From Anthopleura xanthogrammica (lineage: Eukaryota > Cnidaria > Anthozoa > Actiniaria > Actiniidae): a stretch of DNA of 64,000 nt. This document shows, piece after piece, positions 28,388 through 64,000 of this stretch (the first letter of the stretch is position 1; each line of letters opens with the position of its first letter). The notes beneath the pieces are model-generated. The model was not told where the DNA came from. It saw only the letters and a list, made by a program, of their open reading frames with translations, and ran no database searches. A program made the position numbers and the translations under genes. The stretch spans positions 684,501 through 748,500 of the forward strand of contig OZ025222.1 in NCBI GenBank assembly GCA_964019055.1, in the 5' to 3' direction.

Positions 28388-29216
28388 CGTAACTATGACA
28401 CTTCTGGACGTAGCAGCGTTAACATGGTTAGCAACGGTAACTATGGGGCTGAACTTAGCAACAGTAACTATGGGACTGGAAGTAGCAACGGTAACTATGA
28501 CACTTCTGGACGTAGCAGCGTTAACATGGTTAGCAACGGTAACTATGGGGCTGAACTTAGCAACAGTAACTATGGGGCTGGACATAGAAACGGTAACTAT
28601 GACACTTCTGGACGTAGCAGCGTTAACATGGTTAGCAACGGTAACTATGGGGCTGAACTTAGCAACAGTAACTATGGGGCTGAACTTAGCAACAGTAACT
28701 ATGGGACTGGACATAGCAACGGTAACTATGGGACTGGACATAGAAACGGTAACTATGGGACTGGACATAGAAACGGTAACTATGGGGCTGAACTTAGCAA
28801 CAGTAACTATGGGACTGGACATAGAAACAGTAACTATGGGACTGGACATAGAAACGGTAACTATGGGGTTGAACCTAGCAACAGTAACTATGGGACTGGA
28901 CATAGAAACGGTAACTATGGGGTTGAACCTAGCAACAGTAACTATGGGACTGGACATAGCAACAGTAACTATGGGGTTGAACCTAGCAACAGTAACTATG
29001 GGACTGGACATAGAAACAGTAACTATGGGACTGGACATAGAAACAGTAACTATGGGACTGGACATAGAAACAGTAACTATGGGACTGGACATAGCAACAG
29101 TAACTATGGGACTGGACATAGAAACAGTAACTATGGGACTGGACATAGAAACGGTAACTATGGGGCTGAACTTAGCAACAGTAACTATGGGACTGGACAT
29201 AGAAACGGTAACTATA
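28388..29216. repeat. 27-bp minisatellite, about 830 bp
   Basis: Units of the form GGTAACTATGGGACTGGACA plus TAGAAAC tile the array, with variant phrases (GGGGCTGAACTTAGCAAC, GGGGTTGAACCTAGCAAC). A longer GACACTTCTGGACGTAGCAG phrase occurs three times in the left third as a higher-order unit. Because 27 is divisible by three and the unit lacks stops in several frames, frames of 284-292 codons are open on both strands. One plus frame would give a Gly-Asn-Tyr-rich nonapeptide repeat (GNYGTGHRN), but there is no independent support for translation. Confidence 0.9.
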
Positions 29217-39525: not shown

Positions 39526-39763
39526 AAAAGTCGCGATAAATGTACATGTTTCTGGACTGTACTGTATTGTGTGTAGGAATCAAGGGTGAAATATAGTGAT
39601 AACTATAAGAGCACTGGGGTCTCAAAGCAGATTCCTGGACTCTCAATCACATGAGCAAAGTTGTTAGGTTTCTTCTTTGGATCAAAGGTTTTTCTCTCAG
39701 TTTTTGTAGTTTTCCTCCCTGCACAAACCTAACATTGAAATTAAATTCTAATTTGATCTCAGA

Positions 39764-40211
39764 GTTAGCCATGCCCTGACTTAGATCAGCCCAGAGGTTG
39801 TTTCAGGGTTTGATCTGTGAGTTAGCCATGCCCTGACTTACATCAGCCCAGAGGTTGTTTCAGGGTTCAATCTGTGAGTTAGCCGTGCCCTGACTTAGAT
39901 CAGCCCAGAGGTTGTTTCAGGGTTCAATCTGTGAGTTAGCCTTGCCCTGACTTATATCAGCCAAGAGGTTGTTTCAGGGTTCAATCTGTGAGTTAGCCGT
40001 GCCCTGACTTATATCAGCCCAGAGGTTGTTTCAGGGTTCAATCTGTGAGTTAGCCTTGCCCTGACTTATATCAGCCCAGAGGTTGTTTCAAGGTTCGATC
40101 TGTGAGTTAGCCATGCCCTGACTTAGATCAGCCCAGAGGTTGTTTCAGTGTTCGATCTGTGAGTTAGCCATGCCCTGACTTAGATCAGCCCAGAGGTTGT
40201 TTCAGGGTTTC
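39764..40211. repeat. 57-bp minisatellite, inverted relative to 30.3 kb
   Basis: About eight units of TTAGCCATGCCCTGACTTAG, ATCAGCCCAGAGGTTGTTTC and AGGGTT are the reverse complement of the 30328-30726 family at very high similarity. The array lies just beyond the 3' end of the RNF141 homologue. Confidence 0.9.
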
Positions 40212-40407: not shown

Positions 40408-43400
40408 TTACGTATGTTCGCCAGCTCCTTCAGCAAGTCCCATGACATAGTTAGCAATTTCCCCTTTGCTAGGAGCATCAGGAATCTCCCATGAGTCTTT
40501 GTTCTTTACTTCATCACGACAGATGGGACACGTGGCGTGTGAAACACTCCTGAAAGAACGGGTGTTACATGTTTCATCATTATACTCAGTCATCACAATC
40601 ATAACCATGGTAATCACCATGGTTTCTGTCATCATCATCATCGTCATCACAACCAACACCAATCATCAAATCATTCAGAATCATCAATTCATCATTATCA
40701 AAATCATTTTCACATTCATCATCATCATTGAACGTCATCATCATTATCACTATCATTACTAGATAATCATCATCTTCACTTTCTTCAGGTCATCATCACT
40801 CATCATATATCATCATTACTGTAATCACCATCATCACTATATATGATCATCACCATCATCACTATGTATCATCACCATCATCACTATGTATCATCACCAT
40901 CTTCACTATGTATCATCACCATCATCACTATGTATCATCACCATCATCACTATGTATCATCATCACCATCTTCACTATGTATCATCACCATCATCACTAT
41001 GTATCATCATCACCATCACTATGTATCATCATCACCATCATCACTTTGTATCATCATCACCATTATCACTATGTATCATCATCACTATCATCACTATGTA
41101 TCATCATCACCATCATCACTATGTATCATCATCACCATCATCACTATGTATCATCACCATCATCTCTATGTATCATCACCACTATCATCACTATGTATCA
41201 TCATCACTATGTATCATCACCATCATCGCTATGTATCATCATCACCATCATATTTCTTTGAAAAGCATTCCTACCATGTATCTATGCAGGTTTTGCAAAA
41301 GGAATGCACACAAGAAAGAATCACTTCTGAGTTCCTTTCCATGCATATACAGCACTCTTCTAAATCACTTTCTTCTGCCATGGCTTCATCAACTCTGAAA
41401 CACAAATAATACCTACTATACCAATGCATTCATCATGTTTAGTAAGCTCAGTGTCGATTGGTTGAACTCAGCTGTAAGCTCAGTGTTGATTGGTTGAACT
41501 CAGCTGTAAGCTCAGTGTTGATTGGTTGAATTCAGCTGTAAGCTTAGTGTTGATTGGTTGAACTCAGCTGTAAGCTCAGTGTTGATTGGTTGAACTCAGC
41601 TGTAAGCTCAGTGTTGATTGGTTGAACTCAGCTGTAAGCTCAGTGTTGATTGGTTGAACTCAGCTGTTAGCACATCATGATTGGTTGAATATACATGCAT
41701 GTACATGCCTACTAAGTACCTTGTAATGATCATTGATGCTGTTAGTGCTTGTCTTGCTTGCTGTAAATCTATTTTTTGGTATGTCTGGAATAGAGGGCAT
41801 TGAACATGAAAGATAAATGGATTAATAGATTGATGAACGAAAAAAAGGAAGGATGAGTGAATAAAAAGAAGGAAGGATGGGTGTGTGAGTGGATGGATGG
41901 ATTGATGAATGGAAGGATGTATGGATGGATGGGTGGGTGGGCAGGTGGGTTGGTGGGTGGATGGTTTGGTGGATGGATGGATAGAGATGGATGGATGAAA
42001 GGAACAAAGGATGGGATGGGTGGATGGCTAAAAGGAATGATAGATGGATGGTTAAATGGATAGGATCAGATCATCTACTACATTTATTGAAGCATTTAAA
42101 TTCTTTTCTCTTCTGATAAGAACCAAGCTAAACTAAAGCACATTTTATTTAAACATGAATATACATACCTCGCCATTCTTGTCAACCTCCTCCCACTGCT
42201 CATCCTCATCTAATGACTTTGTACATCTGACTTGTTTAAGCACATCTCTGTAGACTTTACAAAACTGCCGCAGATCCAGAACCTTTCTTGTCTTGATCAT
42301 GCCACTTGACTTCTCTATCTGAAGTTGAATAATACTTTAGCTGAATTGGCCTTTTGCAACACCCAGTCACGTGAAAAAAATTTGGACTTCCATTATTTCA
42401 AATAATTTTGCAAAATTACTAATATCATATCCAAGACCTTTCACAAAATCATTTTTTTCTCTGAAAAGATACTTTCAATTTCAAGATACGAACAATTTAA
42501 AGTTTGTTTGCCATCCAGCAGAGCCTTCCCCAAGGGACCTTGGGCTGAATTGATTTTTTCTCAAAGTGATATATCAGCATGTGACTGTTTGTTGCAAATG
42601 GCCTATTTTAAGCCAACCCTCATGTCATAATAAGTTTTGGCTCCCAAAAGACTCTGACTTATTATAATTTAATTTTTACCACAATGTCTCTAACTGTGTT
42701 CGTTAATAATGCAGGGTAAAGAAACAGACCTCTTTAGCTTCGTTGTTTGTTGTGCCCATTTCAGACCATGTGATGCCACTCTTGGGAGTTGATTCTTTCA
42801 TACATGTAAATATTTTAACAAAAGAACATTTCTCAAGGGAATGCCATGTGGTCTGAAATGGGCAAATTGCAGACGAAGCTAAAAAGGGCTTCAATCCATT
42901 CATCTTGTAGCTGCTCAATGCACAAGATAAGATTATCTTGTCATTAAAAAACTGAAATTCTAACCCTTTCTATCATATATAGTCACAGGTAGCCCAAGCT
43001 ATGGTTTTGAATATATATAGAGAGAATGTATGACAGATCAAAAAATTTCTTTAAAATAAAATAAATTTCATATTTTATTGTTTCTTTACCGGTATATCAA
43101 TGTTTTATTGCATGTTTTGTGGTTTCCTGACGGTTTGGTTGCATTTTAAGGCGATTTTAGGAAATTTTATCTCCTCTCTAAAGACGAAGTCAAGGTAGGA
43201 ATCTTCAGACTCGGGTACTTTGGTTCAACAGGCCGTAAATCGCCAGAAATCTGTTCCACGGCAAATTTTTCACTGGCTACCCTTCGCCCAATAAATATCC
43301 AACACATCCAATCCGAAAATTGCCATATCGCTTCACTTCTTCCCGTCGAAATTCGCAAATATATACGCTCAACTCAGACAAATTCAACCGCGGACGGATC

Positions 43401-46822: not shown

Positions 46823-48290
46823 TTTGCTCGACGTTAGACCAAACTATTTGTGGATTCTTTCCAAAAAACAGCGTTAGATGTGACCTTATCTCAGCCAAGT
46901 GTAGAGGACCTTCTTCTAAGGTTTCTTTCTGCATATTTTCTAAAGGATTTATCAATTTATTTTTGAGTCAAAGATAAGATTAAACAGTACAAGACAACGT
47001 TTGGTAAACGTTTTCTGATCCAAGGATAATCAAGGATTGTGATAAGAATTCTTCTTCACTGGTAAGTAGAAATAAGGCATTCAGGTTGTATATTATTTGG
47101 TTATTTCGAGAGGAAGGGTTGCTTCATACTCTACGTACATTACATTGCTGTTTAGTTCACCCTGTGCTATGAGGATTTTCTCACCACGGCTTTCCTCCCT
47201 TCTGAAAGTTTAACATCTAGCTAGCAGGGATTTCATCATAGTTTTACCTTGTTTGGGTCATGCTTTGGCAAAAAGAGTTTTAATTGAACAATATACAAGT
47301 ACTTTTTAAGGAGAAATGTGAAAGTACTATGATTTCCTTCCTCGATCAAAATTGGGAGAGTCAAAGAGGTTTGATATCTTGTGGAAGAACTTATCTATGG
47401 TTACATCAACCCCAGAGCCTTGTCATTCTTACTGCGCATGCTCGTCGAAATGTCAGAGATTCTGGGAAACCCTAGCACATGGTAGCCAGAATAGTGGCAC
47501 CTGGTATGTAATGCGCATGCTCAAATTCGAATTATCGCTAGAGCGCGCGCTCTGTAAATCAACAGTTTTATATTTTACTTCTGAAAAAAGTCTGTTGTTA
47601 TTGCTTTACAGCTTCACTGCCATTTTATCAAAGGTTTCAAAGGTTTATTTTTCTCCACATAGTACAAAGTTACAAGTTTCAAATTTAAGATACATTAGAG
47701 AACAGTGGAAAGGTACAGGAATTACAACCCACGGGGGTTAATTAAAAGATCCTGCACCTTAATTATGAGATAAAGAAAAAGTTGGTGGCGGACAAGGGAT
47801 GCATAATATAACTAGTACAAAATGAAAATATGTATAATATGTACACGGTAGTTTGAAATAACAGTAATAAAGATATATATTTACAAGTTATTGAAGATGT
47901 AAGATAATTATTTACTGAGAGGTAAGGTATCTTTTGAAATGCTTTCTAAAACTTTTAAGAGTTGGACTATTTTTTATTTCAAGAGGTACCTCATTCCAGC
48001 TTTTGGCTGCCGCGTATTTCACGCCAAACTTACCATAATTTAAGTTTTGACGAGGTAGATAAAAAATTTTATTCGTTTTAGAGCGTGTGTTATAATTATG
48101 AATTAAGTTTATATCTGGTTTTTAGATGTGTTTCTCATTGGATAACATTTAATTATATAAAAAGACACCCTGACAGCTGTGTATATTATAACTTTTCCAA
48201 TAATTGTCCCCAGATCCTGTGTAGTTGTTTGTACGTGGGACAAGATTCTAATTCCACTGGGAAAACTGCTGAACATGGCATCAATATGTT
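46823..48290. other. Spacer between RNF141 and the RNase L-like cluster
   Basis: I see a dispersed repeat copy (47625-47755) and paired TGCGCATGCTC phrases (about 47432 and 47511). Open frames at 47284-47741 have no family signature. No gene is supported. Confidence 0.5.
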
Positions 48291-48299
48291 GTTTGGTTC

Positions 48300-48694
48300 G
48301 ACCCGGAAATCAAATTTTCAGACGACTAACGTCACACTTTGTTTATAATATGCATCACCATATTTGGTATTCTGTCTCCGTCAACAGCTGCTTTTCTTGG
48401 AATTGAAAACTTGTTTGTCTTTCTTAACTTTGCTCTGCATTTGTTGTCAAACGATGTTAAATCTGAAGAAACCATTGCTTTAACATCTTTAACCGTATCT
48501 TTATCGCTTTTTACAACAGCTAGACTGTTGCTGAAGCGAAATTCAAGATGTGAATCGAGTATTTTGTCGTAAAAATGGCGAAACTGAGTTGTGATGAAAT
48601 CGAGGACCGAGGGTCTCTACAGGGTTCTTGCAGAACGTCTTGAATTTATTCAGATATTTGATCTCAAGATTTCTCAAGATTTTATCAGTGAATG
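48300..48694 (+). promoter_or_regulatory. Leader/promoter block of the first RNase L-like gene
   Basis: This block is clearly related to 56108-56499 upstream of the second gene, although the two lie about 1.1 and 1.7 kb before their coding regions. Shared landmarks are TCAAATTTTCAGA, TAATATGCATCACCATATTT, AAAAATGGCGAAA and a terminal GTGAATG before GTAAG, which looks like the donor of a non-coding first exon (48694/48695). The matching acceptor could be TTTTACTTTTAG near 49718. A 77-codon plus frame (48339-48572) and the opposite frame are both open in the two copies. Confidence 0.5.
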
Positions 48695-49828
48695 GTAAGC
48701 TAATTTATCAAAGTTCGAGCTAAAGAATTTCCTGGATAGCAACAATGACAAATACAATATTTTCTTAGCAAATAAATGTTGAGAAATAAGCTTAAAACTT
48801 GAGAATTAATTAGCAAACTAATTATCATACTTAGCAAGCAAGCTTAGTCTTGTGGATGGGTCAGTGATCACATTCAGTCGGATCGCATGGATAAAGACGT
48901 CAAAAAATTCCTCAAAAAAGTTTGGAAAAGTAAAGTGTAATATATACGGGGAGCATTCACACAGACTAAGGAAGATCAGTGCTCTTTCTGAAGTTTGACA
49001 TTCTTAATTCGATAGAAGCGAAGCTTAAAAAAAGCGTAACCAGCCTAAGGGATCATTATGCAGCTCAATTCTGCAGTGTATGGCGTCGAGGGTTGTGATA
49101 AATATTGTATAGCATATCACATCTAAATTTTGAGTTATACGATTCAAAATTTATCAAAAATTCCCCGTTTATATGCATAACTTTACAACTACCTACGACC
49201 ATTTGCGAGGTTTCGTGAGGCGTGACGCGACAAGGTTTTCAAAAGTTTATCGTTGCGCGTATGACGTCACTTTCATTGAATTGCTACCACTGACAGGAAC
49301 GCATTCGTTTAATGGCGGACCGAAAATGCCGAACTTTACAGGCTAAATACAACATCTTCCCGGTCTCGTATCGAAATAAAAGTTTGACAATTAACTATAT
49401 AACATGTCTACTTTTATAAGATATATTCTTTAGGGATAGTGTCATTTTCGTAAGACTAGCACTTTAATGTAGTTGTCCATATTGAATTTGTGCACAAACC
49501 CAAAATACAAGGGTCATCACCACCATCATCATCATTATAACGTCCTAGACTTAATTCATTATAACATATAAAGTAATATATTAATGAAATTATTATTTAT
49601 GATAGTGGTTGCCCTCCAATTCACATGACCTCCCCATCAGACCCATCAGACCATCATGAACCTTTGCAGTAAAAATGGTATTGAATTTATCTAATTTTCT
49701 AATTGCTTTTACTTTTAGACTTAGCTGAACAAAATAAAAGCAATTCCAAGAAGCTTCAATCAAAGTATCCGCAATAATGTATGATTAAGGGTAAACAGAC
49801 GGCTGCATTGCAGACAAGTGCCCACTGC

Positions 49829-52800
49829 ATGATGGCGGAAACAGGTAATCACCAAAATGCTGTTGAGACTGATGTGAAATGGCCTTTGATTCAAGCTGTT
49901 AATAATCATGATAGAAGTGAAGTAGAGAGATTGATCAATGATGAAGGGGTTGATGTCAATGAAGCTGATGCCCAGGGAAATACAGCTTTGCTGTGTGCAG
50001 TCCAGAGTAATGTTGACCTTGATATTATTAAAGCTTTAGTTGAAAAGGGTGGAGCTAAAGTTAATGCTAAAGACCGTTGTGGAAGAACTTCCTTATTCTA
50101 TGCCGTCACAAAATCAACGGAGACAGCTTCATATCTTTTTAAAAATGAAGATTACTTTTCTAATGATTCTGTTGTCTCCAGCATCTTGTCATTTTTTATA
50201 GAGAGCCTTTGTACAAAAAGGCACGATTCTCATCCAACAATTGATGAAGTCTTATCTCTGCTGCAAGGTAAAGGCCTAACGCCCGAAGTACTTGCTAAGT
50301 CAATAGTGAACATCTTGCTGTGCAAAATTCCTCTTCTTTTAACGTCTGCGATTGATGGTCATCGACCCAGAAACTCACAACACCCAATGTTTCATTTGCA
50401 CGGAAAAAGGAAATCGTTTTTAGATATCTTGAAGAAGGTAAGCGGGTGTGATTATCTCGAGAACTATCAAGGGAAGGAAAGCATCAAGGAGGTTTTGGAG
50501 ATGACAGAATATAAGAGAAGTATTTCAGATATTCTCCATTTGCTAAAGGAGCACGGTCCCGACCCCAACTTTGCTGATTCAGATGGCAATACTGCTCTTC
50601 ACTATGCAACTTGTTTACCATGGATGGGCATTCCTCAAGACACTGTCAAGGAAATATATGAAAAGTTACAGAGCTTTGGAGTTCCGTTGAACAAAAAGAA
50701 CCATCTATATGAAACACCCCTCTTGTTCTGCTTGTCTGGAAGCATAGCACATTTAGAAGATGATGTTAAGTCAACAGCAATGAAGACATTGGTGAAAGTC
50801 TGCAAGTTTCTAGTGACACGTGTATCAAGTTTAATCGAAACGTCCCAAAATGGAGAGTCCGTTTTTCACTTGGTCATTAAGCTTTTTCAGCAAGGTTTCG
50901 AAATACCCGATCAAAGAGTTAGAGAGGGTGTTATTGATGAAACAATGAACATTTTGCATTTGTTTAAATGCCCCAAAGTGGGCAACGTTGCTCGGGAAAG
51001 CGCTGGTAATCTCCATAATTCCCCACTTCATGTGTGGGCGTCGTTAGTATTAACGACACCTGTTCAAAATTACACTAGTTTTGTAACTCGAGAGCATTCT
51101 TTTGAGAAACGTTTGGAAGTTATATTGAAACATCTCTTAGAATGTGGTGCAAAAATGAATGGTAGAAACAAGAAGGAAGAAACTGCTCTACATCTGTGCA
51201 ACACTTGGAGTGCAGTGAAGCTCTTAATCCATAATGGTGCAAACACAAACGATAAGGATTCATTGAAACGTCCACCTCTTCTTGTGGCAGCAAGCAAGCA
51301 AACTTTTCTTAGAAATCCTTCTGAGGAAAAGAATCGTTTTTATCCAGATGTCCAAGAGGAAGCAGGCCCTTTTTTTAGAGCTGCTGTTGAAAAGAAACTT
51401 GATCCATGGGCAGTTGACAAATGCCATAAGTCTGTTTTGGGTTTTCTTATTGCATTTGGCATCTATGATCTATCCAAAGCCTTAATCGAGGTTGCTTGTA
51501 GCTTGAAAGAGAAAGAAATCTTTGTTTCTCTGCTGAATGCAATTTGCAAAGATGAATCTCTGCATATGCGTTGGAAAGTTGAGCTTGTTGAAAAGGTTCT
51601 ATCATGTGCAGAGGAAAGGAACATTAATGTAGTTAACGAAGCCTTTGACGTTTGCTGTGAAACTATGATATCACAATTGAGTGGTATGGTTGATGATGAG
51701 CCACCTCCTTCAAATGACGAAACAGCTGAAGAATCAGATGGTATAGTTGATGGGCCACCTACTTCCAACAACGGATCAGTTCTGAAAAATTCTGAAATTG
51801 AAAACACCCTCCATTGCAAGATTGCTAAAATGCTTCGTTCACATGGAGCTGAATTGTCAGGCAAATCCTATGAAACGCTAAAGACGAAATATAACCAAAT
51901 CGAACAAATTCTGGAAAACACCCAAGTTGAAGAACTTGTTCCTTGGACGTCTAGATCAAAAACACATAAAAATACGCTAGACAAAGTTGCTAGGTATCAA
52001 GAGTACCAGGAAATTGGTGAGTCAATTTGTTGCCACAAGGATCCTGCAGCCGGGTCGTTTGGTGCTGATGTTTATGTAGGAATCAACAAGCTGAATAGAA
52101 AAGAAGTGGCCATTAGGCGCATCGATGCGATCAGAGAAAAACAATGCACAGAAAAATTGAAGAATCTCTATGCTCGATTAGACTGTGAGCAAGTAATTCG
52201 TTATTTGTTTCACTTAAAGGATAACGTTGCCGACCGTGTTTACATTGTTTTTGAACTGATGGAGGGTAATCTAGATAACTACTTCAAGGATGCCTTTGAC
52301 CCCAAGAAAGGTACAAGTCTTTGTGGAGATATAGTTAAGGGGTTGAACTATTTGCACGAGCACGAAATCAGCCATTTTCAGGATCATCTTAAGCCAACAA
52401 GCATTTTCTATAAAACACATCCTCAACTGTGCTTGAAAATCACCGACTTTGACCATAGTCAGCCCGAAACGTCTACCTATGTTTCGTTGTCACCAGAAGT
52501 GTTGACGAAGCCTGAAAACCACTCCAAGTCTTCTGACATGTTTTCTTGTGGGTTACTCCTGCATTATATCTTGTCAAAAGGAAAGCATCCATTTTGTCCA
52601 GCTGATTGTACCAACAAAAGTAAATCGGACATCGTTTCCGAAACAGAACGTAACATAATAAAAGTAAAATGGATGACTCTCTTTCTCCTGAAGCCGCTGA
52701 TCTTTCTGAGTGGATGCTTGAAAATGTTAGTTCAAGGAGGCTAACTGGAGAAGAAGTACTTAATCATCCGTTGTTCTGGTCCAAAACGAAAAAGATGGAT

Positions 52801-53199
52801 TTTCTCGCCGCTGTTGGTAATCAACAAGAATTTGAATATCCACGTGCTGGAAGATCAGTTCTTTTGTCTGCTGTTGAGTCTGCATTGGAAGCACAGTTTA
52901 GTACCATAGTGGAGCATGCGGACTGGAATGTCCCAAGTTATGCACACATGCCTGATATTTACAATAAAATGAAAAGAAGAAGAAGGTACAAAACAAACTC
53001 TGTAGTAGAATTAGTTCGCCTTATACGAAATGCTCATGCACACGTATCTGAATTACCAAAGCCAATACAAGATCAGTTGCTGAAACACTTTGTGTTCTTG
53101 GAATATTTTCCAAATCTTGTGATGGAAGTCTACAAGGCTGTAACCACTCATGGATGGGATCAGAGGAGAGAAGAGATAAAGTACGCTATGAAGAAATAA
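49829..53199 (+). CDS. RNase L-like ankyrin-pseudokinase-KEN protein (frame break)
   Basis: The first frame is open from 49781 and ends at 52744. The second (52669-53199) continues the same protein one frame back, so about 1,120 residues are encoded across a break near 52660-52669. I prefer ATG 49829, since TGCATGATG is shared with the paralogue. Order: ankyrin repeats (for example VNEADAQGNTALLCAV, DSDGNTALHYAT, EETALHLC), a linker, then a kinase-like domain (GSFGADVYVG; VAIRR at 52106, so the ATP lysine is Arg; HFQDHLKP at 52373; DFD at 52445). A KEN domain follows, with FWSKTKKMDFLAAVGNQ, then RNAHAH at 53026-53043, which keeps the Arg-Asn and the His used by RNase L and IRE1 for RNA cleavage. 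DFD is also what I recall for human RNase L. The likely role is a ligand-sensing ribonuclease in the cytoplasm; whether it senses 2-5A is unknown. The break may be an assembly error or a pseudogene mutation. Confidence 0.85.
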
Positions 53200-54480
53200 G
53201 AAGGTAACTAAAAAATAATAAATGCATTTTTAATTGATTTAATTTGAAGAGATTATTTTTTGAATCCACAGATCCGCGTACTTATTCCTTTGTCGGAGTT
53301 AATGTTGCGTTCACCAGTCCTCTGCAGTCCGTCTGTCCAAGGTTCCTGTTTTAGCATGGTGATCTTCATTGCAGTCAAAAATAAGCAGAACAATTGGTAC
53401 TTGAATTTTCTTCATAATCATAAACGTCTCATATACATATACATATTATAGTAACCGTCCTCGAATGGAAGACTTGGCCATATTTTTTAGATGATAGTTT
53501 TGTATGTAATCTAGATATATTAGGACTCTTATAGCTTCGGGCCTTAAGTCAGAAGTCAGCTTTAGCTAGAAATGCAGACGATAGCATTACTATAGCCCCT
53601 GTTTTTCACATGAGTATGCCACGAGAAAGCATTGTCTGAAATTCCTTGTGGGAAGAAATATACAATGGCTTTCCTACATTTTGCAATTGATTGGCTGTGG
53701 GACAAATTGAAATAGAGAAATAACGTTATATGTAATATTACTACATGCAAGTAAAAAAAGAATTGTTTTAATATAAAAAGGTAAAATTATAGTAATATAA
53801 AAGTTGATTACTATACTAACCAGGGACTGCGGAGCACCCTAAAAAGTGGTGGGGCTATATAAGAGACTAGTATGGGAAAAAGTGGTGGGGCTAAGATTGA
53901 AAAATATAAGAGACTGGTATGGGAAAAGGGAGAAAGTGGTAGGACTATAACCCTTCCAGGCCCTCCCCCTCCGCTGTCCCTGCTAACTACGCTCTTGACT
54001 GGATATGCCTTGGTGTGGTCAGCTTATTGCAAATAATTGTTTTTAGGGATACATTTTCATATATGATATCATCATATTAAGGAAACCTTGACAGATGTAA
54101 ATAAAACTTATTCAATAATAATATCCTTAATAGTTAATCCTCGTAAAGGTTATTACTTAGTATTACTTAATAGGTTTTAGAAAAGAAGAGTACGCCCAAA
54201 TGTACCTTAGTTTCAGCGTTGTAGTACCGATCAGTGTTAACGTTTTCTAGACATATTATCCGAGAAGTTGCACATAAACATTGATGGCTTTAATCAAGAT
54301 ACTAATTGTAAGGTTAGTCATGTAAACCTCATAAAACAAAGATGATGATGATTATTACATACTAATTTTTAGCTCTTAAAGTTTAAACGTCCAAATATTC
54401 TTTACTAAGAAAATGTCCGTAGACTAGAATAGCAGTTTCGAGACTACTACTATTAGGAGATTAATTTTGATTGATTGATA
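53200..54480. other. Spacer with a short direct repeat
   Basis: At about 53845-53945 the phrase AAAGTGGTGGGGCTA with TATAAGAGACTAGTATGGGA is repeated with small changes. Otherwise there is AT-rich DNA with no recognisable gene. Confidence 0.5.
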
Positions 54481-54481
54481 A

Positions 54482-54609
54482 CTAAGGCCCGGTTTAGACG
54501 TCGAATTTCACTTGTGCTGAATCTATTGCAAATGAGCAAAACCTATTGTTTGAGTTGCTTTGCATTAGATTCGGCACATGTGAAACGCGACGTCTAAATC
54601 GGGCCTTAA
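54482..54609. mobile_element. MITE, TTAGGCCCGG family, copy 2
   Basis: A near-palindrome runs from CTAAGGCCCGGTTTAGACGT to GACGTCTAAATCGGGCCTTA and carries GCAAATGAGCAAAACCTATT in its centre. It matches the 20667-20791 element closely. It lies between the two RNase L-like genes. Confidence 0.85.
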
Positions 54610-54976
54610 ACTCCTGGGTTTAATTTTGACTATAGAGCTTTTAAGTGTGACGTCAATCGTATGGAAAAACGACTTCCGGGTCCAAAACGAAAAGCAGTTC
54701 TATAAACATTTTTCTTACTTTTTCTTCGTGACAGGATTTGTTGTCCAAAGTTCTAATTGTTTCAGTTGGAGGTTAAATCAGTTGCTTACAAGCAGCTGGA
54801 CCCGGAAATACGTTTTATGTGTCACAACTTAAAGACTATATTTTACGTACTTGACTCTAAATAGTGTACTTTTAGACATTTTATAATCACATTTTTTGTC
54901 CTTCGCAAGTATTCATATATGTGTACTTTATCAATCCAATAAAAAGGTTATTAGTACTATTAAGATCATTATTATT

Positions 54977-55137
54977 ACCATTGCCATCACCATCACCATC
55001 ACCATCACCATCACCATCACCATCACCATCACCATCACCATCACCATCACCATCACCATCACCATCACCATCACCATCACCATCACCATCACCATCACCA
55101 TCACCATCACCATCACCATCACCATCACCATCACCAT
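54977..55137. repeat. (CATCAC)n microsatellite, about 25 copies
   Basis: A nearly perfect hexamer array of about 150 bases is flanked by degenerate CATTAC units. All six frames are open across it (for example ITIT, SPSP, MVMV, DGDG repeats); none is a gene. Confidence 0.95.
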
Positions 55138-56107: not shown

Positions 56108-56499
56108 TCGACCCGGAAGTCAAATTTTCAGATGACTTATACGTCACACTTTGTTTATAATATGCATCACCATATTTGGTATTCTTTCTGCGTCAACAGC
56201 TTCTTTTCTTGGAATTGCAAAATTGTTTGCCTTTCTTAACTTTGCTCTGCATTTGTTGTTAAACGATGTTAAATCTGATGAAATCGTAACTTTAACATCT
56301 TTAACCGTATCTTTATCGGTTCTTACAACAGTTGGGCTGTTTTTGAAGCGAAATTCAAGATGTAAATGGAACATTTTGTTCTAAAAATGGCGAAAACGTT
56401 GCTGTTAAAATTCATGAAGACCGAGGGACTCTACAGACTTGTAGGATTATTTATTCAGATATAAAAGCTCAAGATTTTTCAAGATTTTAGCGGTGAATG
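56108..56499 (+). promoter_or_regulatory. Leader/promoter block of the second RNase L-like gene
   Basis: This is the paralogous copy of 48300-48694, with the same landmarks and a donor-like GTGAATG/GTAAGT at 56499/56500. It contains a plus frame of 77 codons (56151-56384), the same length as in the first copy. The opposite frame (56374-56144) is hydrophilic and conserved (CRAKLRKANNFAIPRKEAVD, ending RIPNMVMHIINKV). It could be a leader exon plus promoter, or a relic of a divergent exon. Confidence 0.5.
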
Positions 56500-58186
56500 G
56501 TAAGTTACTGATTTATCACAGTTCAAGCTAAACATCGTTAAGTGTATCTTTATCTGTTTTAACAATACTTGTGCACTTGTTCAACCAAATTTAGGAATAT
56601 ATATGAAATCGAGTATTTTTCTGAAAATGGTGACGAAACGGCTTTATGTACATAACAATTATCATCAACGGCAATCATTTTCTCGAGCAAAACCATAAAG
56701 AAGTTAATATAACGGCCTTAAAAAATTAGAAATGACTCCACTAATACGATTTTTGACACAAAATGTTCAAAATTGTCCGTTTCTGGTAAAATTAGTTTTT
56801 TTTACCATCATCTTTTGGTTACAGCCTTCCGTGTTTCTGCGAAGTCGGCACCTTCCAAAAATCTGCGTTTTGGCTTCCGCGAAAAACTCTTACAAACTCA
56901 GACCGCCTAGAATTAATGGATGGTAGCCAAGATGGATCACAGATGTTGATTCAGAAGTATTACTGAATATATTTTAAAATTACACAACCATAGTTAGTGG
57001 AGGGGACTATGAGAAAAACTAATCCCGTAGAAGGTCTAAAATTAACTTACAGCATCTACAAAAAACTGTGGCTCCTTTTTAGAATGCGCGCCGGCTTGCA
57101 TGTGGATATCTTGTTGTAAGTTGACTTAAATATAAGACGGCCATGTAATAAAAAAGTAAAAAGGGGAGAAGGTTTGAATTTTTCGAAGAATGAGACTCGG
57201 AGATGAACATATTGATTTATGTAACTATACACGTATCACATGAGGTCAAGGAAGAAAACTTGCACTCTGAACAATTAAGGGGCAATATTTTGTCGGGCAA
57301 ACGAAATGAAATTGTAATTCTAATTGTCATTGACATTTGGCGGTTGGGAAAATATTTGGTTGCAAATAAATTGCATTTCCACCTATTGCTAATATTTTAT
57401 CAATAGTAATGACCCTTATCTAGGATGCTTAGGCCATTCTTGGGTGATTAAATCCTGCTTTTGTCCTTAGTTTCACATTCTTATAGCAATCTTTTCCCAA
57501 TCGCCAAATTTTTTTTTTCTCAGACAAACGTCTTCCCGTCTGGTATCGAGATTTTGATCGAGGTTCCACGTTCCGTTTCATTTTTGCAATATTAAAAACA
57601 AACTTAAAATCAAATATTTAGTAAATAAACGATTTCGAAAACAAACCAAAAACTTCATTCACGAAACATGGATGCTTACCATTGAAGACATTTACAGTAT
57701 ATTTTGTTAATTTTTTCGTGTTTCCTGGCGTAGTTTTCTCAACCAGTCTTTGCATTTTACTCTCACTTGTTTGTAAAAACCGAGTTTCTTTGTTTTCCGT
57801 GTTTTTTTCTTTTCTTTTTTGACGTTTTTACCTTCTGCTGGACGAATATCACTTCGGACGGGGGATATCGCCTGATACCCGTCCTGCACGTGACCCATTT
57901 GAACCAATGACAGCGCGCGAAAATTCATCGTTGGGTTATAACAAAAAATAAATAGAATCTTCCAACCTCGATAGGAACGAATGAGCTGGTTTGACTGTAA
58001 AATATGTTTTTTCTTAACTTTCAGATAAAATGTTGCTCTCCGTTGTTGGAAGAATATCACTGTAATTCCTTGATGCAAATTTGGCCAACTTAAAGGTTAG
58101 AATGATGTCAACATTTTTGAGTTGTTTGATGAGTAGAAAATGATAAACAGAATAAAACTGTTGCATTGGAAACTATTGCACGTTGC
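56500..58186. other. Putative 5' intron/spacer of the second gene
   Basis: The stretch lies between the leader block and the start codon at 58187. It holds a CACGTGAC E-box (57887-57894) beside CCAAT (57904-57908) and AGCGCGCG, which may be a separate promoter. An acceptor-like CTTTCAG near 58018-58024 could join the leader to the coding exon. No other gene is supported. Confidence 0.4.
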
Positions 58187-61100
58187 ATGATGTCTGGACC
58201 AAGTAATGAACAAAATGTTGTCGAGACTCCCGCGCAGAACGCTTTGATTAAAGCCGTTGAAAACGATGATGTACGCGAAGTAAAAAGATTGATCGATGCT
58301 GGAGTAGCTGTTGATGAGACTGACAACAGAGGCATGAATGCTCTGTTTGAAGCTGTTAGGTGTTGCAATGGAACTCTTGTTCATTTACTGGTTGAGGAAG
58401 GGAAAGCTTTTGTAAATGCAAGAGATCTTTATGGTAGAACTCTGTTGTTTTACGCCATAACACAATCCAAAGAGATTGCAGAGTATCTAATTAAAAATGG
58501 TGCGGATGTTAACCTTAAAGATTTCACCAATAGAAGGGCTTTATCGTTTTTCGTCGAGAACTGCATGCTGAATGAGAATATCCCATTATCGTCTCTAATC
58601 TCTGACAAAGCCAAAGAATTTGAAATGCTCAAAGATCCAAGCGAGGACGTCAATCATAATATCATCAGGTCAATATTGGATATTGTGATCTGCAAACTTC
58701 CACTTATGTGTGCCTCGCCCAAAATTCCCAGTGACAAAATCTGGGAGAACTTCATCACAGCTTTGAAACTGGCCAACACATATTTTGCAGAAACCGACAC
58801 CAAACAAATCCTTGATAATATTTTGAAGGACTGCGAAGAAAAAAAACCCTTGATCAGTGCTATGTGTGATAAGGTGATTGCATTACTAGTTAAGATAGGT
58901 GCCGACCCCAACTTTGCTGATTCAGATGGCAATACTGCTCTTCACTATGCAGCTTGCTTACCTTTTCTGGGTGTCTCTACCAAAGTCATTATGTCCATGT
59001 TTGGTCAGCTTGAAAGGTATGGGCTAACGCTGAACACAAGAAACCATCGAAATGAAACACCCCTCTTGTTCTGCTTGTCTAAAAACATAGGGCATTTAGA
59101 AGAAAACGATAAGTTAACAGCCTTGAAGGCATGCGCATTGGTGGACGTCTGCAAATTTCTAGTATCACGTGGATCAAGTTTAGACGAAACGTCCCAAAAT
59201 GGAGAGTCAGTGTTTCACTTGGTTATTGAAATTTTTCAGCAAGGTTTTAAAATACCTGAGCAAAGAGTTAGAGAGGGTGTTATTGATGAAACAATGAAAA
59301 TTTTGGATTTGTTTTCATATGATCGCTTGATCGAAGGAAATATGGTAAACAAGGGAGATTCTCGGCTTAATTCACCATTGCATAACTGGGCAAAACTAGC
59401 ACCATTCCACCCAGACTGCAGCAGTAATGACTCATTTGAAAAGACTTTAAGAAGGATTTTAGAGCATCTGATGAAATTAGGAGCAACCCTAAATCCCAGA
59501 AATGAAGATGAAGAAACCCCTCTACATAGGTGTAAAACACGGGAGGCTGTCAAGTTATTACTTGCTGAAGGGGCAAACCCAAATGATGTGGATTCATCGG
59601 GACGCTCACCATTAATTGCAGCAGTGAACAACAAAACATATTTGATGAAGCCAGATGCTGATCAAAGTAACAATGAAAGTGTAGTTCGTGCATTGATTGA
59701 TGCTGGTGCTGATGTCAACATAACTGATAATGAGGGGAAAACTCCTTTGTTTCATGCTGCTCAACAAAGTAACAATGAAAGCGTAGTTAGTGCATTGATT
59801 GATGCTGGTGCTGATGTCAACATAACTGATAATGAGGGGAAAACTCCTTTGTTTCATGCTGTTCAACAAAGTAACAATGAAAGTGTGGTTCGTGCATTGA
59901 TTGATGCTGGTACTGATGTCAAAATGACTGATGAAGATGGGAGTACTGCTTTGTTTCAGGCCGTCCAAAGTAACGAGGGTGTTTGTGGATTGCTTGAAAA
60001 GTGGACTACGTTTAACTTGGAAGAAATTGATGGAAAAGCTGCTTTGTTTTATGCTGCTGAAAATGATCGACCTCGGGTAATATGGGAATTATATCTTGAA
60101 GGCCTTGATCTCAACACAACTGATGACGAGGGCAAAACTGCTGTGTTTTATGCTAACAAGTACCACAGTATGGGTGCACTTTGTGAGTTGATTGGTTGTG
60201 ATGCTGAATTTAAATTGGATGAAATTGATGGAAAAGCTGTTTTGTTTTATGCTGCTAAAAATGATAAGGCTTTTGTAGTATGGGAATTGCATCTTAAAGG
60301 CCTTGATCTCAACACGACTGATGACGAGGGCAAAACGGCTGTGTTTTATGCTAACAAGAACCACAGTATGGAAGCACTTTGTGAGTTGATTGGTTGTGAT
60401 GCTGAATGTAACTTGGATGAAATTGATGGAAAAGCTGTTTTGTTTTATGCTGCTAAAAATGATAAGCCTTTTGTAGTATGGGAATTGCATCTTAAAGGCC
60501 TTGATCTCAACACGACTGATGACGAGGGCAAAACGGCTGTGTTTTATGCTAACAAGAACCACAGTATGGAAGCACTTTGTGAGTTGATTGGTTGTGATGC
60601 TGAATGTAACTTGGATGAAATTGATGGAAAAGCTGTTTTGTTTTATGCTGCTAAAAATGATAAGCCTTTTGTAGTATGGGAATTGCATCTTAAAGGCCTT
60701 GATCTCAACACGACTGATGACGAGGGCAAAACGGCTGTGTTTTATGCTAACAAGTACCACAGTATGGAAGCACTTTGTGAGTTGATTGGTTGTGATGCTG
60801 AATTTAAATTGGATGAAATTGATGGAAAAGCTGTTTTGTTTTATGCTGCTAAAAATGATAAGGCTTTTGTAGTATGGGAATTGCATCTTAAAGGCCTTGA
60901 TCTCAACACGACTGATGACGAGGGCAAAACGGCTGTGTTTTATGCTAACAAGAACCACAGTATGGAAGCACTTTGTGAGTTGATTGGTTGTGATGCTGAA
61001 TGTAACTTGGATGAAATTGATGGAAAAGCTGTTTTGTTTTATGCTGCTAAAAATGATAAGCCTGGGGTAGTATGGGAATTGCATCCTAAAGGCCTTGATC

Positions 61101-64000
61101 TCAACACGACTGATGACGAGGGCAAAACGGCTGTGTTTTATGCTAACAAGAACCACAGTATGGAAGCACTTTGTGAGTTGATTGGTTGTGATGCTGAATT
61201 TAAATTGGATAAAATTGATGGAAAAGCTGTTTTGTTTCATGCTGCTAAAAATGATAAGCCTTTTGTAGTATGGGAATTGCATCCTAAAGGCCTTGATCTC
61301 AACACGACTGATGACGAGGGCAAAACGGCTGTGTTTTATGCTAACAAGAACCACAGTATGGAAGCACTTTGTGAGTTGATTGGTTGTGATGCTGAATGTA
61401 ACTTGGATGAAATTGATGGAAAAGCTGTTTTGTTTTATGCTGCTAAAAATGATAAGCCTTTTGTAGTATGTGAATTGCATCTTAAAGGCCTTGATCTCAA
61501 CACGACTGATGACGAGGGCAAAACGGCTGTGTTTTATGCTAACAAGAACCACAGTATGGAAGCACTTTGTGAGTTGATTGGTTGTGATGCTGAATGTAAC
61601 TTGGATGAAATTGATGGAAAAGCTGTTTTGTTTTATGCTGCTAAAAATGATAAGCCTTTTGTAGTATGGGAATTGCATCCTAAAGGCCTTGATCTCAACA
61701 CGACTGATGACGAGGGCAAAACGGCTGTGTTTTATGCTAACAAGAACCACAGTATGGAAGCACTTTGTGAGTTGATTGGTTGTGATGCTGAATGTAACTT
61801 GGATGAAATTGATGGAAAAGCTGTTTTGTTTTATGCTGCTAAAAATGATAAGCCTGGGGTAGTATGGGAATTGCATCCTAAAGGCCTTGATCTCAACACG
61901 ACTGATGACGAGGGCAAAACGGCTGTGTTTTATGCTAACAAGAACCACAGTATGGAAGCACTTTGTGAGTTGATTGGTTGTGATGCTGAATTTAAATTGG
62001 ATAAAATTGATGGAAAAGCTGTTTTGTTTTATGCTGCTAAAAATGATAAGCCTGGGGTAGTATGTGAATTGCATCTTAAAGGCCTTGATCTCAACACGAC
62101 TGATGACGAGGGCAAAACGGCTGTGTTTTATGCTAACAAGAACCACAGTATGGGTGCACTTTGTGAGTTGATTGGTTGTGATGCTGAATTTAAATTGGAT
62201 AAAATTGATGGAAAAGCTGTTTTGTTTTATGCTGCTAAAAATGATACGCCTTTGGTAGTGAGCCCATTATGTGATGCAGGCCTAGACCTTAAGATAACTG
62301 ATGACGAGGGCAAAACGGCTGTGTTTTATGCCGGTAATGATTTCATGGACGCCTTGATGGCAGCTGATGAAATTTTCGTCAATGCAAGAGATCTGTATGG
62401 TAGAACCCCATTGTTTTATGCTCTGGAGAATGACACTACGGAAAAAGCTCGGTATCTGATTGAGAAAGGAGGAAACCTCCAATTAAAAGACAGCTGCAAT
62501 GTAAGCACCTATTCTTTCTTCATCGAAAAATGTATTTCTGCAGGATGGAATGTAGAGTCACGGTTACAATTATTTAAGTCTGGATTATTTCAAGACCAGC
62601 AACGATTGAAAGCGCTGACTCTTGCAACATTGGACATTATCTATTGTCAAGCTCCTCTGTTGTCTGTCAGTGGTTCTCCTCATTTGCCAAAGTCATACAT
62701 GATTTTTAACAAAACAAATGTTTTAGAGGTTTTAACTTTCGTTCGAGCCCAATATTCAAATCAGGATACTGATAAGGTAGAGGACATTGACAACATATCG
62801 TCAATGATAAATGAAAACGAGATCGATGTGCCGCGTATGCTTTCTTTGCTCAACCAACTGGGTGCCAATCCCATCGCTGCTGATTCAGATGGAAATACAG
62901 CTCTTCACTATGCGACCCTTCTACCGCTTCTTGGCGTAACACAAGAAACCGTCATGGATATATTTAAGAAGCTCAGGGAGTTTGGGGAGATATTCAATGT
63001 GAAAAACCACCAGCGTCAATCGCCTCTACAGTTCTGCTTGTCATCAGATACCTGGAAAGTTTTTACTGAAAACAACAAATGGCAGTCGTCGATCAGAGGA
63101 TTGGTAGAGGTCTGTAGATTTTTATTGAGCAATGGATGTAGTATTAATGACACATCACAAGACGGCGAGTCTGTTTTTCATCGAATAATCGCCCTTATCC
63201 AACAGGGTCTCGAACTAAATGATGAAGCCTCAAGAAAGGTTGTTTCACAAGTATTGATGAACATTTTGAAGTTGCTCCCGCTTTCAAAAAACGCAGTTGT
63301 GAACGTTGTGAACAACATTGACAATCTGTTAAACTCACCACTGCACCTTTGGGCATCCATTACGTTAAAATCATCTCAAGATTACACAAGCCCTATGACT
63401 GGAGACAGCACGTTTGTGAACATTTTACAAATAATTTTGCGCCATCTTTTAGAATGTGGAGCAAAACTCAATCCTCGAAATGCGAATGAAGAAACTCCAT
63501 TGCATCTATGCAAAACATGGACCGCTGTGAAGTTGTTGTTAGATGCTGGAGCAACACCAATCCATGTGGATTCATCAGGACGTTCACCTCTTCTTGTTAC
63601 AGCTAAGGAGAACAATTTTCTTAAGAATCCGGATCATTTTTATCCTGATGTTACAGAAGACCCAGAAACATTTTGGAGAAGTGCTCTCGAAAAGGGACTT
63701 GATCCATGGACAGTTGACAAACAGGGCGAGTCTGTTTTGAGTGTTCTTATTAAATCAGAGGCCTATATTCTTGCTAAAGCTTTGGTTGAAGTTGCTTGCA
63801 AGGAAAACTACGCTACGAATGACGTCAAGCTTTCGTTTTTAAATGCCATTTGTAAAGACAAATCCAGGGATACACATTGGAAGACCATTTTGGTTGAAGT
63901 CATCCTAAAGTCAGCTAGCAAGAGCCATCTTTCTGTGGATTCACCACTTCGTCTTTGCTGTAGAAACATTGTTCAATTTGGTATGTTTGATGAAAAGCCA
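58187..64000 (+). CDS. Giant RNase L-like paralogue, ankyrin part (runs off edge)
   Basis: From ATGATG at 58187 the frame is open for 1938 codons to the window edge. Cassette A (residues about 10-490) closely matches the first RNase L-like gene, with shared phrases such as ADSDGNTALHYA, ETSQNGESVFHLV, QRVREGVIDETM and an RSPLIAAV ending. Three 34-residue ankyrin repeats follow (DNA starts 59666, 59768, 59870), then about 12 units of 66 residues, each two ankyrin repeats (DLNTTDDEGKTAVFYANK; LDEIDGKAVLFYAAKND). Cassette B (residues about 1390-1938) is a second copy of the same ankyrin cassette. By comparison with the first gene, the pseudokinase should begin some 80-90 codons past the edge, so a kinase and KEN domain are expected but not seen. 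Probable role: ligand-sensing part of a ribonuclease with an enlarged sensor. No intron or frameshift is visible. Confidence 0.85.
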   Translation, partial: MMSGPSNEQNVVETPAQNALIKAVENDDVREVKRLIDAGVAVDETDNRGMNALFEAVRCCNGTLVHLLVEEGKAFVNARDLYGRTLLFYAITQSKEIAEYLIKNGADVNLKDFTNRRALSFFVENCMLNENIPLSSLISDKAKEFEMLKDPSEDVNHNIIRSILDIVICKLPLMCASPKIPSDKIWENFITALKLANTYFAETDTKQILDNILKDCEEKKPLISAMCDKVIALLVKIGADPNFADSDGNTALHYAACLPFLGVSTKVIMSMFGQLERYGLTLNTRNHRNETPLLFCLSKNIGHLEENDKLTALKACALVDVCKFLVSRGSSLDETSQNGESVFHLVIEIFQQGFKIPEQRVREGVIDETMKILDLFSYDRLIEGNMVNKGDSRLNSPLHNWAKLAPFHPDCSSNDSFEKTLRRILEHLMKLGATLNPRNEDEETPLHRCKTREAVKLLLAEGANPNDVDSSGRSPLIAAVNNKTYLMKPDADQSNNESVVRALIDAGADVNITDNEGKTPLFHAAQQSNNESVVSALIDAGADVNITDNEGKTPLFHAVQQSNNESVVRALIDAGTDVKMTDEDGSTALFQAVQSNEGVCGLLEKWTTFNLEEIDGKAALFYAAENDRPRVIWELYLEGLDLNTTDDEGKTAVFYANKYHSMGALCELIGCDAEFKLDEIDGKAVLFYAAKNDKAFVVWELHLKGLDLNTTDDEGKTAVFYANKNHSMEALCELIGCDAECNLDEIDGKAVLFYAAKNDKPFVVWELHLKGLDLNTTDDEGKTAVFYANKNHSMEALCELIGCDAECNLDEIDGKAVLFYAAKNDKPFVVWELHLKGLDLNTTDDEGKTAVFYANKYHSMEALCELIGCDAEFKLDEIDGKAVLFYAAKNDKAFVVWELHLKGLDLNTTDDEGKTAVFYANKNHSMEALCELIGCDAECNLDEIDGKAVLFYAAKNDKPGVVWELHPKGLDLNTTDDEGKTAVFYANKNHSMEALCELIGCDAEFKLDKIDGKAVLFHAAKNDKPFVVWELHPKGLDLNTTDDEGKTAVFYANKNHSMEALCELIGCDAECNLDEIDGKAVLFYAAKNDKPFVVCELHLKGLDLNTTDDEGKTAVFYANKNHSMEALCELIGCDAECNLDEIDGKAVLFYAAKNDKPFVVWELHPKGLDLNTTDDEGKTAVFYANKNHSMEALCELIGCDAECNLDEIDGKAVLFYAAKNDKPGVVWELHPKGLDLNTTDDEGKTAVFYANKNHSMEALCELIGCDAEFKLDKIDGKAVLFYAAKNDKPGVVCELHLKGLDLNTTDDEGKTAVFYANKNHSMGALCELIGCDAEFKLDKIDGKAVLFYAAKNDTPLVVSPLCDAGLDLKITDDEGKTAVFYAGNDFMDALMAADEIFVNARDLYGRTPLFYALENDTTEKARYLIEKGGNLQLKDSCNVSTYSFFIEKCISAGWNVESRLQLFKSGLFQDQQRLKALTLATLDIIYCQAPLLSVSGSPHLPKSYMIFNKTNVLEVLTFVRAQYSNQDTDKVEDIDNISSMINENEIDVPRMLSLLNQLGANPIAADSDGNTALHYATLLPLLGVTQETVMDIFKKLREFGEIFNVKNHQRQSPLQFCLSSDTWKVFTENNKWQSSIRGLVEVCRFLLSNGCSINDTSQDGESVFHRIIALIQQGLELNDEASRKVVSQVLMNILKLLPLSKNAVVNVVNNIDNLLNSPLHLWASITLKSSQDYTSPMTGDSTFVNILQIILRHLLECGAKLNPRNANEETPLHLCKTWTAVKLLLDAGATPIHVDSSGRSPLLVTAKENNFLKNPDHFYPDVTEDPETFWRSALEKGLDPWTVDKQGESVLSVLIKSEAYILAKALVEVACKENYATNDVKLSFLNAICKDKSRDTHWKTILVEVILKSASKSHLSVDSPLRLCCRNIVQFGMFDEKP
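60065..62345 (+). repeat. 198-bp coding tandem array
   Basis: The phrase starting GAT(AAG/CGA)CC recurs at 60065, 60263, 60461, 60659, 60857, 61055, 61253, 61451, 61649, 61847, 62045 and 62243, exactly 198 bases apart each time. Units differ by few bases (for example CCTTTTGTAGTA versus CCTGGGGTAGTA). The period equals two 33-residue ankyrin repeats, so copy number can change without breaking the frame. Confidence 0.95.

Follow-up and report, generated by a model that had tools for sequence, protein, structure and literature searches.

This locus raises the question of whether a gene built like RNase L, the antiviral ribonuclease activated by 2',5'-oligoadenylate (2-5A), occurs outside the vertebrates and, if so, whether it is RNase L. 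The window, by which we mean the whole 64,000-nucleotide stretch analyzed, comes from the sea anemone Anthopleura xanthogrammica (contig OZ025222.1, positions 684,501 to 748,500 of the forward strand). Gene 1, at 49832-53199 on the plus strand, runs from ankyrin repeats through a degenerate protein kinase into a KEN ribonuclease domain, all on one strand; its neighbor, gene 2, begins at 58190 on the same strand. We put the probability at roughly 0.6 that gene 1 encodes, or once encoded, a cytosolic ligand-controlled ribonuclease working like RNase L and belonging to an anthozoan family that duplicates side by side. Support comes from the ordered domain matches, from an intact relative in Actinia tenebrosa (LOC116308632, 1110 amino acids, here P0001; other P-numbers denote further database relatives), from conservation of the KEN residues R, N and H, from the fold match of a P0001 model, from a ratio of nonsynonymous to synonymous divergence (dN/dS) of 0.37 between genes 1 and 2, and from a report on Nematostella (PMC8476169). 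Gene 1 is RNase L-like in plan but is not classed as RNase L, because the residues that contact 2-5A were looked for and not recognized.

Domain order, frames and fold

The Pfam matches to gene 1 are Ank_2 (2.1e-24), Ank_4 (1.3e-23), Pkinase (4.5e-24, residues 758-953 of the first open reading frame, ORF1) and Ribonuc_2-5A (6.7e-17), the last being the KEN match that a profile check was expected to return. The N-terminal arm, the putative sensor region, is made of ankyrin and helical repeats and spans 49832..51925, as delimited by the ankyrin matches, the alignment of P0001 and the helical character of the P0001 model. A linker recognized by alignment with P0001 (V-E-E-L-V-P-W-T-S-R-S ... L-D-K-V-A-R, 51926..52051) joins the arm to the N-lobe and most of the C-lobe of the kinase (52052..52656). 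The end of the C-lobe, the KEN domain and the stop codon occupy 52669..53199, placed by Ribonuc_2-5A and by matches to Protein Data Bank (PDB) chains, and a pattern scan finds a candidate AATAAA polyadenylation signal just past the stop at 53217..53222. The coding part is intronless. Since Met 1 of the Actinia ortholog aligns to 49832, the start is likely there rather than at 49781. Together with the fold match of P0001 and the anthozoan relatives described below, this order largely bears out the original prediction of an RNase L-type architecture in an invertebrate.

That all three domains lie in one gene holds for the domains and their order but not for a single open frame. Gene 1 is split over two overlapping frames, 49778-52744 with the ankyrins and kinase (ORF1, 988 codons open) and 52654-53199 with KEN (ORF2). 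The length of ORF1 is far above chance expectation, none of 200 mononucleotide shuffles of 48001-55000 having given an open frame longer than 167 codons. The single frame change falls at 52657..52672, at the kinase/KEN boundary in an A-rich stretch. By tblastn, P0001 residues 1-924 match frame 2, ending at 52657, and residues 927-1110 match frame 1, starting at 52657, and P0001 itself is continuous across this point. Because the frame switches where the closest protein reads through, either this copy is damaged or the frame change is a sequence error; A-rich stretches are frequent sites of sequencing errors. There are no other lesions in the roughly 987 and then 176 open codons. Unless the frame change is a sequence error, the product is the ankyrin arm and pseudokinase only, with no KEN. 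A spliced intron with a donor-like GTAAAA, noticed by eye, was rejected because it would be only about 30 nucleotides long and would delete residues conserved in the family.

The predicted structure of P0001 has a mean predicted local distance difference test score (pLDDT) of 77.1 and a predicted template modeling score (pTM) of 0.61. Its arm (residues 21-640) is helical, with ten-residue pLDDT means mostly at 80-94 and lowest at 52. The model matches RNase L along its length, and its kinase-KEN part matches IRE1; RNase L tops the whole-chain fold match, with a Z-score tied with those of IRE1 and ankyrin chains. No Pfam match to a lumenal sensor domain was obtained in gene 1, whose N-terminus consists of ankyrin and helical repeats modeled as helical. 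By analogy, the protein would probably be cytosolic.

The 2-5A contacts of human RNase L we take to be W60, N65, Q68, K89, F126, E131, Y135 and R155. In any ungapped register, the gene 1 protein has at most four of these eight, and 300 shuffles gave three in 124 cases, four in 160 and five in 16. The three repeats found by pattern in the gene 1 protein have no aromatic residue at the G-x-T site, the position occupied in human RNase L by W60 and F126; one aromatic is present there in some relatives. RNase L mutants of W60, K89, F126, E131 and R155 are named in the accessible part of PMC5927464, which suggests some divergence at these positions even between the mouse and human enzymes. At the sequence level, canonical 2-5A binding by gene 1 is not supported, and a gapped or unusual pocket would be possible; with the human contacts unrecognizable, we favor a different nucleotide, or a protein, as the activator. 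Six of eight 2-5A-like letters do appear in gene 2 and several relatives, but they accompany regular 66-residue repeats and, by eye, the aromatic sits at a different repeat position, and we rejected them as a pocket. The linker of gene 1 is weakly similar to that of RNase L (whole-segment probability 89, E 2.2e-6, including the start of the kinase). The linker alone scores 11.45, and 2 of 100 column shuffles score higher (13.14), so this likeness was set aside as too weak to serve as evidence.

An anthozoan family and its kinases

The first protein search returned 863 proteins at E<=0.001 among 7989 scored, and among the best 120, which were listed, P0001 is the closest to gene 1. Gene 1 and P0001 are 63% identical in the ankyrin-kinase part (965 columns) and 66% identical in KEN (181 columns). 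A search with the KEN part (52 proteins) and an alignment search (120 listed of 2228) brought in ankyrin-kinase-KEN proteins of Actinia, Exaiptasia, Actinostola, Dendronephthya and Paramuricea, and all full-architecture relatives with organism names are anthozoan among the matches listed. By their Pfam lists, the 120 rows of the alignment search look like the family or its fragments, including the short P0229 and P0234, whose sources name them IRE1 or IRE1-like; this search was dominated by its first row, and no extra IRE1 or vertebrate RNase L rows were gained. Judged by its sequence, gene 1 is thus a member of a large anthozoan ankyrin-kinase-KEN family. Many members are annotated as uncharacterized or as ankyrin, kinase or IRE1-like proteins. 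The surprise at meeting in an invertebrate what was known mainly as a vertebrate gene is partly answered by this large family, which mostly lacks telling names in the databases. Elsewhere, too, relatives may be clustered side by side, as suggested among 37 hand-picked rows by equal sizes of the largest contig (658,210 for Actinia P0001, P0011, P0124 and P0234; 656,158 for ten others). Viral contigs yielded 83 relatives, of which 80 were kept; their matches end at or before query residue 525, ahead of the KEN motif at 595-600, and no viral KEN appeared, a weak negative resting on two sequence patterns only.

Of the 237 proteins collected, 144 match the kinase-KEN query, and 126 of these extend to KEN while 18 do not. 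Among the 126, the KEN catalytic columns hold R in 124, N in 123 and H in 125. Gene 1 has all three, reading R-N-A-H-A-H for R-N-x3-H at 53026..53043. It also has a KEN Tyr at 52987..52989, in the column that we take to be yeast IRE1 Tyr1043; this is Y in 123 of the 126 relatives, and the two aligned RNase L rows have F and L there.

The kinase is another matter. The ATP-anchoring Lys is replaced by Arg (V-A-I-R, 52115..52117), in a column with K in 121 and R in 5 of the 126 relatives and Lys in P0001. The catalytic loop, H-F-Q-D-H-L-K-P-T-S at 52373..52402, lacks the HRD Asp and the Asn and is similar in P0001, and DFG is replaced by DFD at 52445..52453. An Asp at the DFG Gly column occurs in one of the 126 relatives, P0001, and otherwise only in gene 1 and the two RNase L rows of the alignment. 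Having lost the ATP Lys, HRD Asp, Asn and DFG Gly, the gene 1 kinase does not appear competent for catalysis; P0001 shares all of these losses but the first. The Arg, the DFD and the intact R-N-x3-H had been read correctly in the original prediction, which was incomplete in that the HRD Asp and the catalytic-loop Asn are also lost; the Arg is not found in P0001. Since most of these motifs are shared with the intact P0001, most of the pseudokinase character is older than the frame break. Departure from K, HRD-D, N, DFG-D or DFG-G is seen in 12 of the 126, and 114 keep the kinase motifs. Degenerate kinase motifs with intact KEN R/N/H occur also in P0176, P0178, P0179, P0182, P0186, P0140, P0150, P0032, P0039, P0189 and P0227. 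Human and pig RNase L have Q at the HRD Arg column and DFD, and keep the HRD Asp and the Asn.

Phylogeny and rival readings

The main tree has 70 rows (65 family members, gene 1, two RNase L and two IRE1) and 434 columns; the RNase L and IRE1 rows came from PDB alignments and include no cnidarian IRE1. Gene 1 and P0001 pair at 100/100, within a set of 10 rows (99/92) whose other eight members keep the kinase motifs. The family is monophyletic without RNase L (98/97), and the best tree separates the two IRE1 rows from RNase L plus the anthozoan family (99/95). At 3.66 changes per column, the RNase L branch is long enough that long-branch effects must be expected. A larger tree (126 family members, gene 1 and two IRE1, 129 rows) was made by a quick method with only Shimodaira-Hasegawa-like approximate likelihood ratio support and with nine kinase motif columns blanked. 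In it, gene 1 and P0001 still pair at 100, the next set (12 rows) has 66 and the following one (92 rows) 92; the kinase state changes at least eight times, the gene 1 lineage included, and DFD arises in one change. A tree of KEN alone places gene 1 with P0001 and P0124 (96/92). Because gene 1 and P0001 are nested among relatives with intact motifs, and DFD is otherwise absent from the 126 relatives, their RNase L-like DFD is best read as convergent with that of RNase L.

By the approximately unbiased (AU) test, forcing gene 1 and P0001 with RNase L costs 11.35 log units (p-AU 0.069), or 6.87 with KEN only (p 0.228), and forcing them with the IRE1s, away from their own family, costs 18.48 (p 0.040). 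Forcing RNase L with one IRE1 costs 4.82 (p 0.169) and with the other 4.93 (p 0.156). With two rows each of RNase L and IRE1, the trees do not distinguish a shared ankyrin-KEN ancestor of RNase L and the family from separate origins, and the original alternatives, older origin or convergent fusion, stay unseparated. The tree does group gene 1 with the anthozoan family, but leaves RNase L and IRE1 unseparated by AU.

Gene 1 shares with vertebrate RNase L the order of ankyrin arm, kinase-fold scaffold and KEN, the DFD for DFG and the KEN R-N-x3-H. It differs in lacking recognizable 2-5A contacts, in its longer ankyrin and helical arm, in losing the HRD Asp and Asn that human and pig RNase L keep, in the apparently separate origin of its DFD and in the frame break of this copy. 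With IRE1 it shares the kinase and KEN core, closer in sequence than that of RNase L, and the KEN Tyr; it has an ankyrin arm where IRE1 has a lumenal sensor, and its kinase is dead. With the anthozoan family it shares the full architecture and full-length homology, P0001 being its partner, but not the kinase motifs kept by most members.

By analogy with RNase L and IRE1, the ankyrin arm of such a protein would sense a signal, probably a protein or a nucleotide other than canonical 2-5A, and the kinase-fold scaffold, a pseudokinase in gene 1, would relay it by back-to-back dimerization. The paired KEN domains would then form the active RNA-cutting site, and RNA would be degraded in the infected or stressed cell, giving the protein an immune role. 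The family would duplicate side by side, most paralogs keeping the kinase motifs and the gene 1 lineage having lost them.

Several points weigh against this reading. The frame change and the poor match to the 2-5A contacts have been described. The kinase-KEN part is nearer IRE1 in sequence: the best PDB chains for the KEN part of gene 1 (52669..53199) are IRE1 2rio (3.8e-17) and 9n88 (3.1e-8), ahead of RNase L 4o1o (2.2e-5) and 4oau (0.0021), and for the P0001 kinase-KEN they are IRE1 3fbv (7.8e-23) and 6xdb (7.9e-22), ahead of RNase L 4o1o (1.8e-11), a comparison to be read with the very long RNase L branch in mind. We take 4oau to be human and 4o1o pig RNase L, and 2rio and 3fbv to be yeast IRE1; 6xdb is human IRE1. 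Foldseek TM-scores of the P0001 model against RNase L are low, 0.17-0.21 by query and 0.26-0.32 by target. The best 19-residue Kyte-Doolittle mean of the gene 1 protein is 1.82 (residues 153-171), which exceeds the customary cut-off of 1.6 for a membrane segment and leaves one possible, yet it falls in a helix of the modeled arm (P0001 148-166); P0001 reaches 1.72, and a G protein-coupled receptor (GPCR) from the same window, used as a control, 3.06. Finally, the dN/dS of 0.37 between genes 1 and 2 (473 aligned codons, 48% identity, dN 0.44, dS 1.2, from a simple Nei-Gojobori script with synonymous sites partly saturated) averages both branches, climbs to 0.93 over one run of 50 codons, and is no proof that gene 1 itself is still under constraint.

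Among the alternatives, the one we find easiest to entertain, while still leaning against it, is that ankyrins were fused independently to an IRE1-type kinase-KEN core in the anthozoan ancestor, for sensing stress or symbionts rather than for antiviral defense. The kinase and KEN do score nearer IRE1, the kinase motifs survive in 114 of 126 relatives, and among the matches listed no full-architecture relative with an organism name comes from outside the Anthozoa. However, the tree sets the IRE1 rows apart from RNase L plus the family at 99/95, a weak test with two IRE1 rows and no cnidarian one; there is no lumenal sensor; and the Nematostella report suggests an antiviral link, though its RNase L, in the accessible part of the paper, is not tied to this family (PMC8476169). 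Slightly less credible is that gene 1 is a recent pseudogene, in which the frame change removes KEN and the pseudokinase motifs are decay. One frame change between kinase and KEN, the missing kinase motifs and a Lys-to-Arg change absent from P0001 would fit, but the frames are otherwise open without a lesion, most pseudokinase motifs are common to intact P0001 and so predate the break, KEN is still 66% identical to that of P0001 with its catalytic residues kept, and an A-rich stretch is generally error-prone in sequencing.

We think it improbable that gene 1 is a true RNase L ortholog, inherited from an ancestral 2-5A-activated OAS-RNase L pathway predating the split of cnidarians and bilaterians. 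The identical domain order, the lead of RNase L in the whole-chain fold match (with its tied Z-score), the position of both IRE1s opposite RNase L plus the family (99/95), the weak linker similarity and the OAS of cnidarians reported in the accessible parts of PMC6307210 and PMC8476169 all point that way. Against this, placing RNase L with either IRE1 survives the AU test (p 0.169 and 0.156) and the RNase L branch is very long; the 2-5A residues reach four of eight at best where shuffles reach three to five; and family kinases mostly keep their motifs (114 of 126), in contrast to human and pig RNase L with their DFD and a Q at the HRD Arg position. Returning to a ribonuclease that works like RNase L, a broader version of it, speculative and to our minds unlikely as a whole, is that anthozoans have a large arsenal of ankyrin-kinase-KEN ribonucleases, growing through duplication of neighboring genes, with arms tuned to different pathogen-derived or second-messenger signals. 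This would be the cnidarian counterpart, possibly the ancestral form, of OAS-RNase L, with kinase activity kept in most members as a second output and the DFD pseudokinase evolved a second time in the gene 1 lineage.

The literature, covered by titles and the starts of abstracts and with subscription papers and preprints outside its scope, held no description of a cnidarian ankyrin-kinase-KEN family. In the accessible portions, PMC6307210 (2018) reports OAS in three anthozoans and "no hits" for RNaseL in cnidarians; PMC8476169 (2021) names RNase L and OAS1 homologs in passing among the poly(I:C)-response genes of Nematostella; and PMC13319465 places OAS1 in RLRb-positive cells and mentions RNase L solely as a vertebrate example. 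The excerpts of PMC3710099 describe KEN-kinase fusions, some with ankyrins, and lineage expansions of KEN in Oikopleura and monocots, with cnidarians not mentioned there, and those of PMC2852836 contain nothing about invertebrate RNase L. Nematostella belongs to the same animal class as the anemone studied here, and its RNase L homolog is known by name alone in the text available. Proteins with the full RNase L order and an intact KEN site would be direct candidates for the effector that appeared to be missing beside anthozoan OAS (PMC6307210, accessible part). They make it testable whether any binds 2-5A or another OAS- or cGAS-like product and cuts RNA. Loss of the kinase motifs has recurred (at least eight state changes in the 129-row tree), once leading to DFD, and is in effect a natural experiment on why RNase L became a pseudokinase.

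Gene 2 and the surrounding sequence

Gene 2 (58190..64000, plus strand; Ank_2 1.1e-140) is a second family member that begins 5 kb downstream of gene 1 and has no stop up to the end of the window and no intron seen, within an open frame at 58133-64000; its kinase and KEN, if present, lie past the window end. An ankyrin module like that of gene 1 comes first, followed by three repeats of 34 residues, some twelve of 66 residues and another ankyrin module. In DNA, the repeats are 102 bp in 3.0 copies and 198 bp in 11.7 copies with 96% matches. Gene 2 is 67% identical to P0004 over P0004 residues 1-1009 and 61% to P0128 over 1-1145. Its first ankyrin module is 43% identical to P0001, and the second is nearest to P0172 (71%) and P0004 (69%) among the 237 proteins collected; P0004 groups with Paramuricea, an octocoral, in the 70-row tree. 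Gene 2 resembles two joined ankyrin modules, and its roughly twelve 66-residue repeats are nearly identical.

Along 50480-50929 of gene 1, dS to gene 2 drops to 0.3-0.6, with ratios of 0.93, 0.62 and 0.37. Part of this patch and its counterpart at about 58808-59278 share 80% DNA identity over 420 columns, suggestive of gene conversion between the two genes. A 78% identical segment precedes both ankyrin genes (48501-48724 and 56313-56532) and overlaps similar reverse-strand open frames (48332-48616 and 56144-56380), which have no Pfam match; the segment may have been duplicated along with the genes or may be a dispersed repeat.

Elsewhere in the window, a single open frame at 3614-4774 encodes a rhodopsin-class GPCR (7tm_1, 1.1e-43), and an open frame at 35340-35729 on the minus strand, probably an exon, matches RhoGEF (3.2e-13). 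Two 57-bp satellite arrays, at 30326-30697 (6.3 copies) and 39762-40209 (7.9 copies), have units that by eye appear to be reverse complements of each other. Further arrays lie at 1448-1784 (80 bp), 28429-29215 (27 bp) and 41442-41689 (32 bp).

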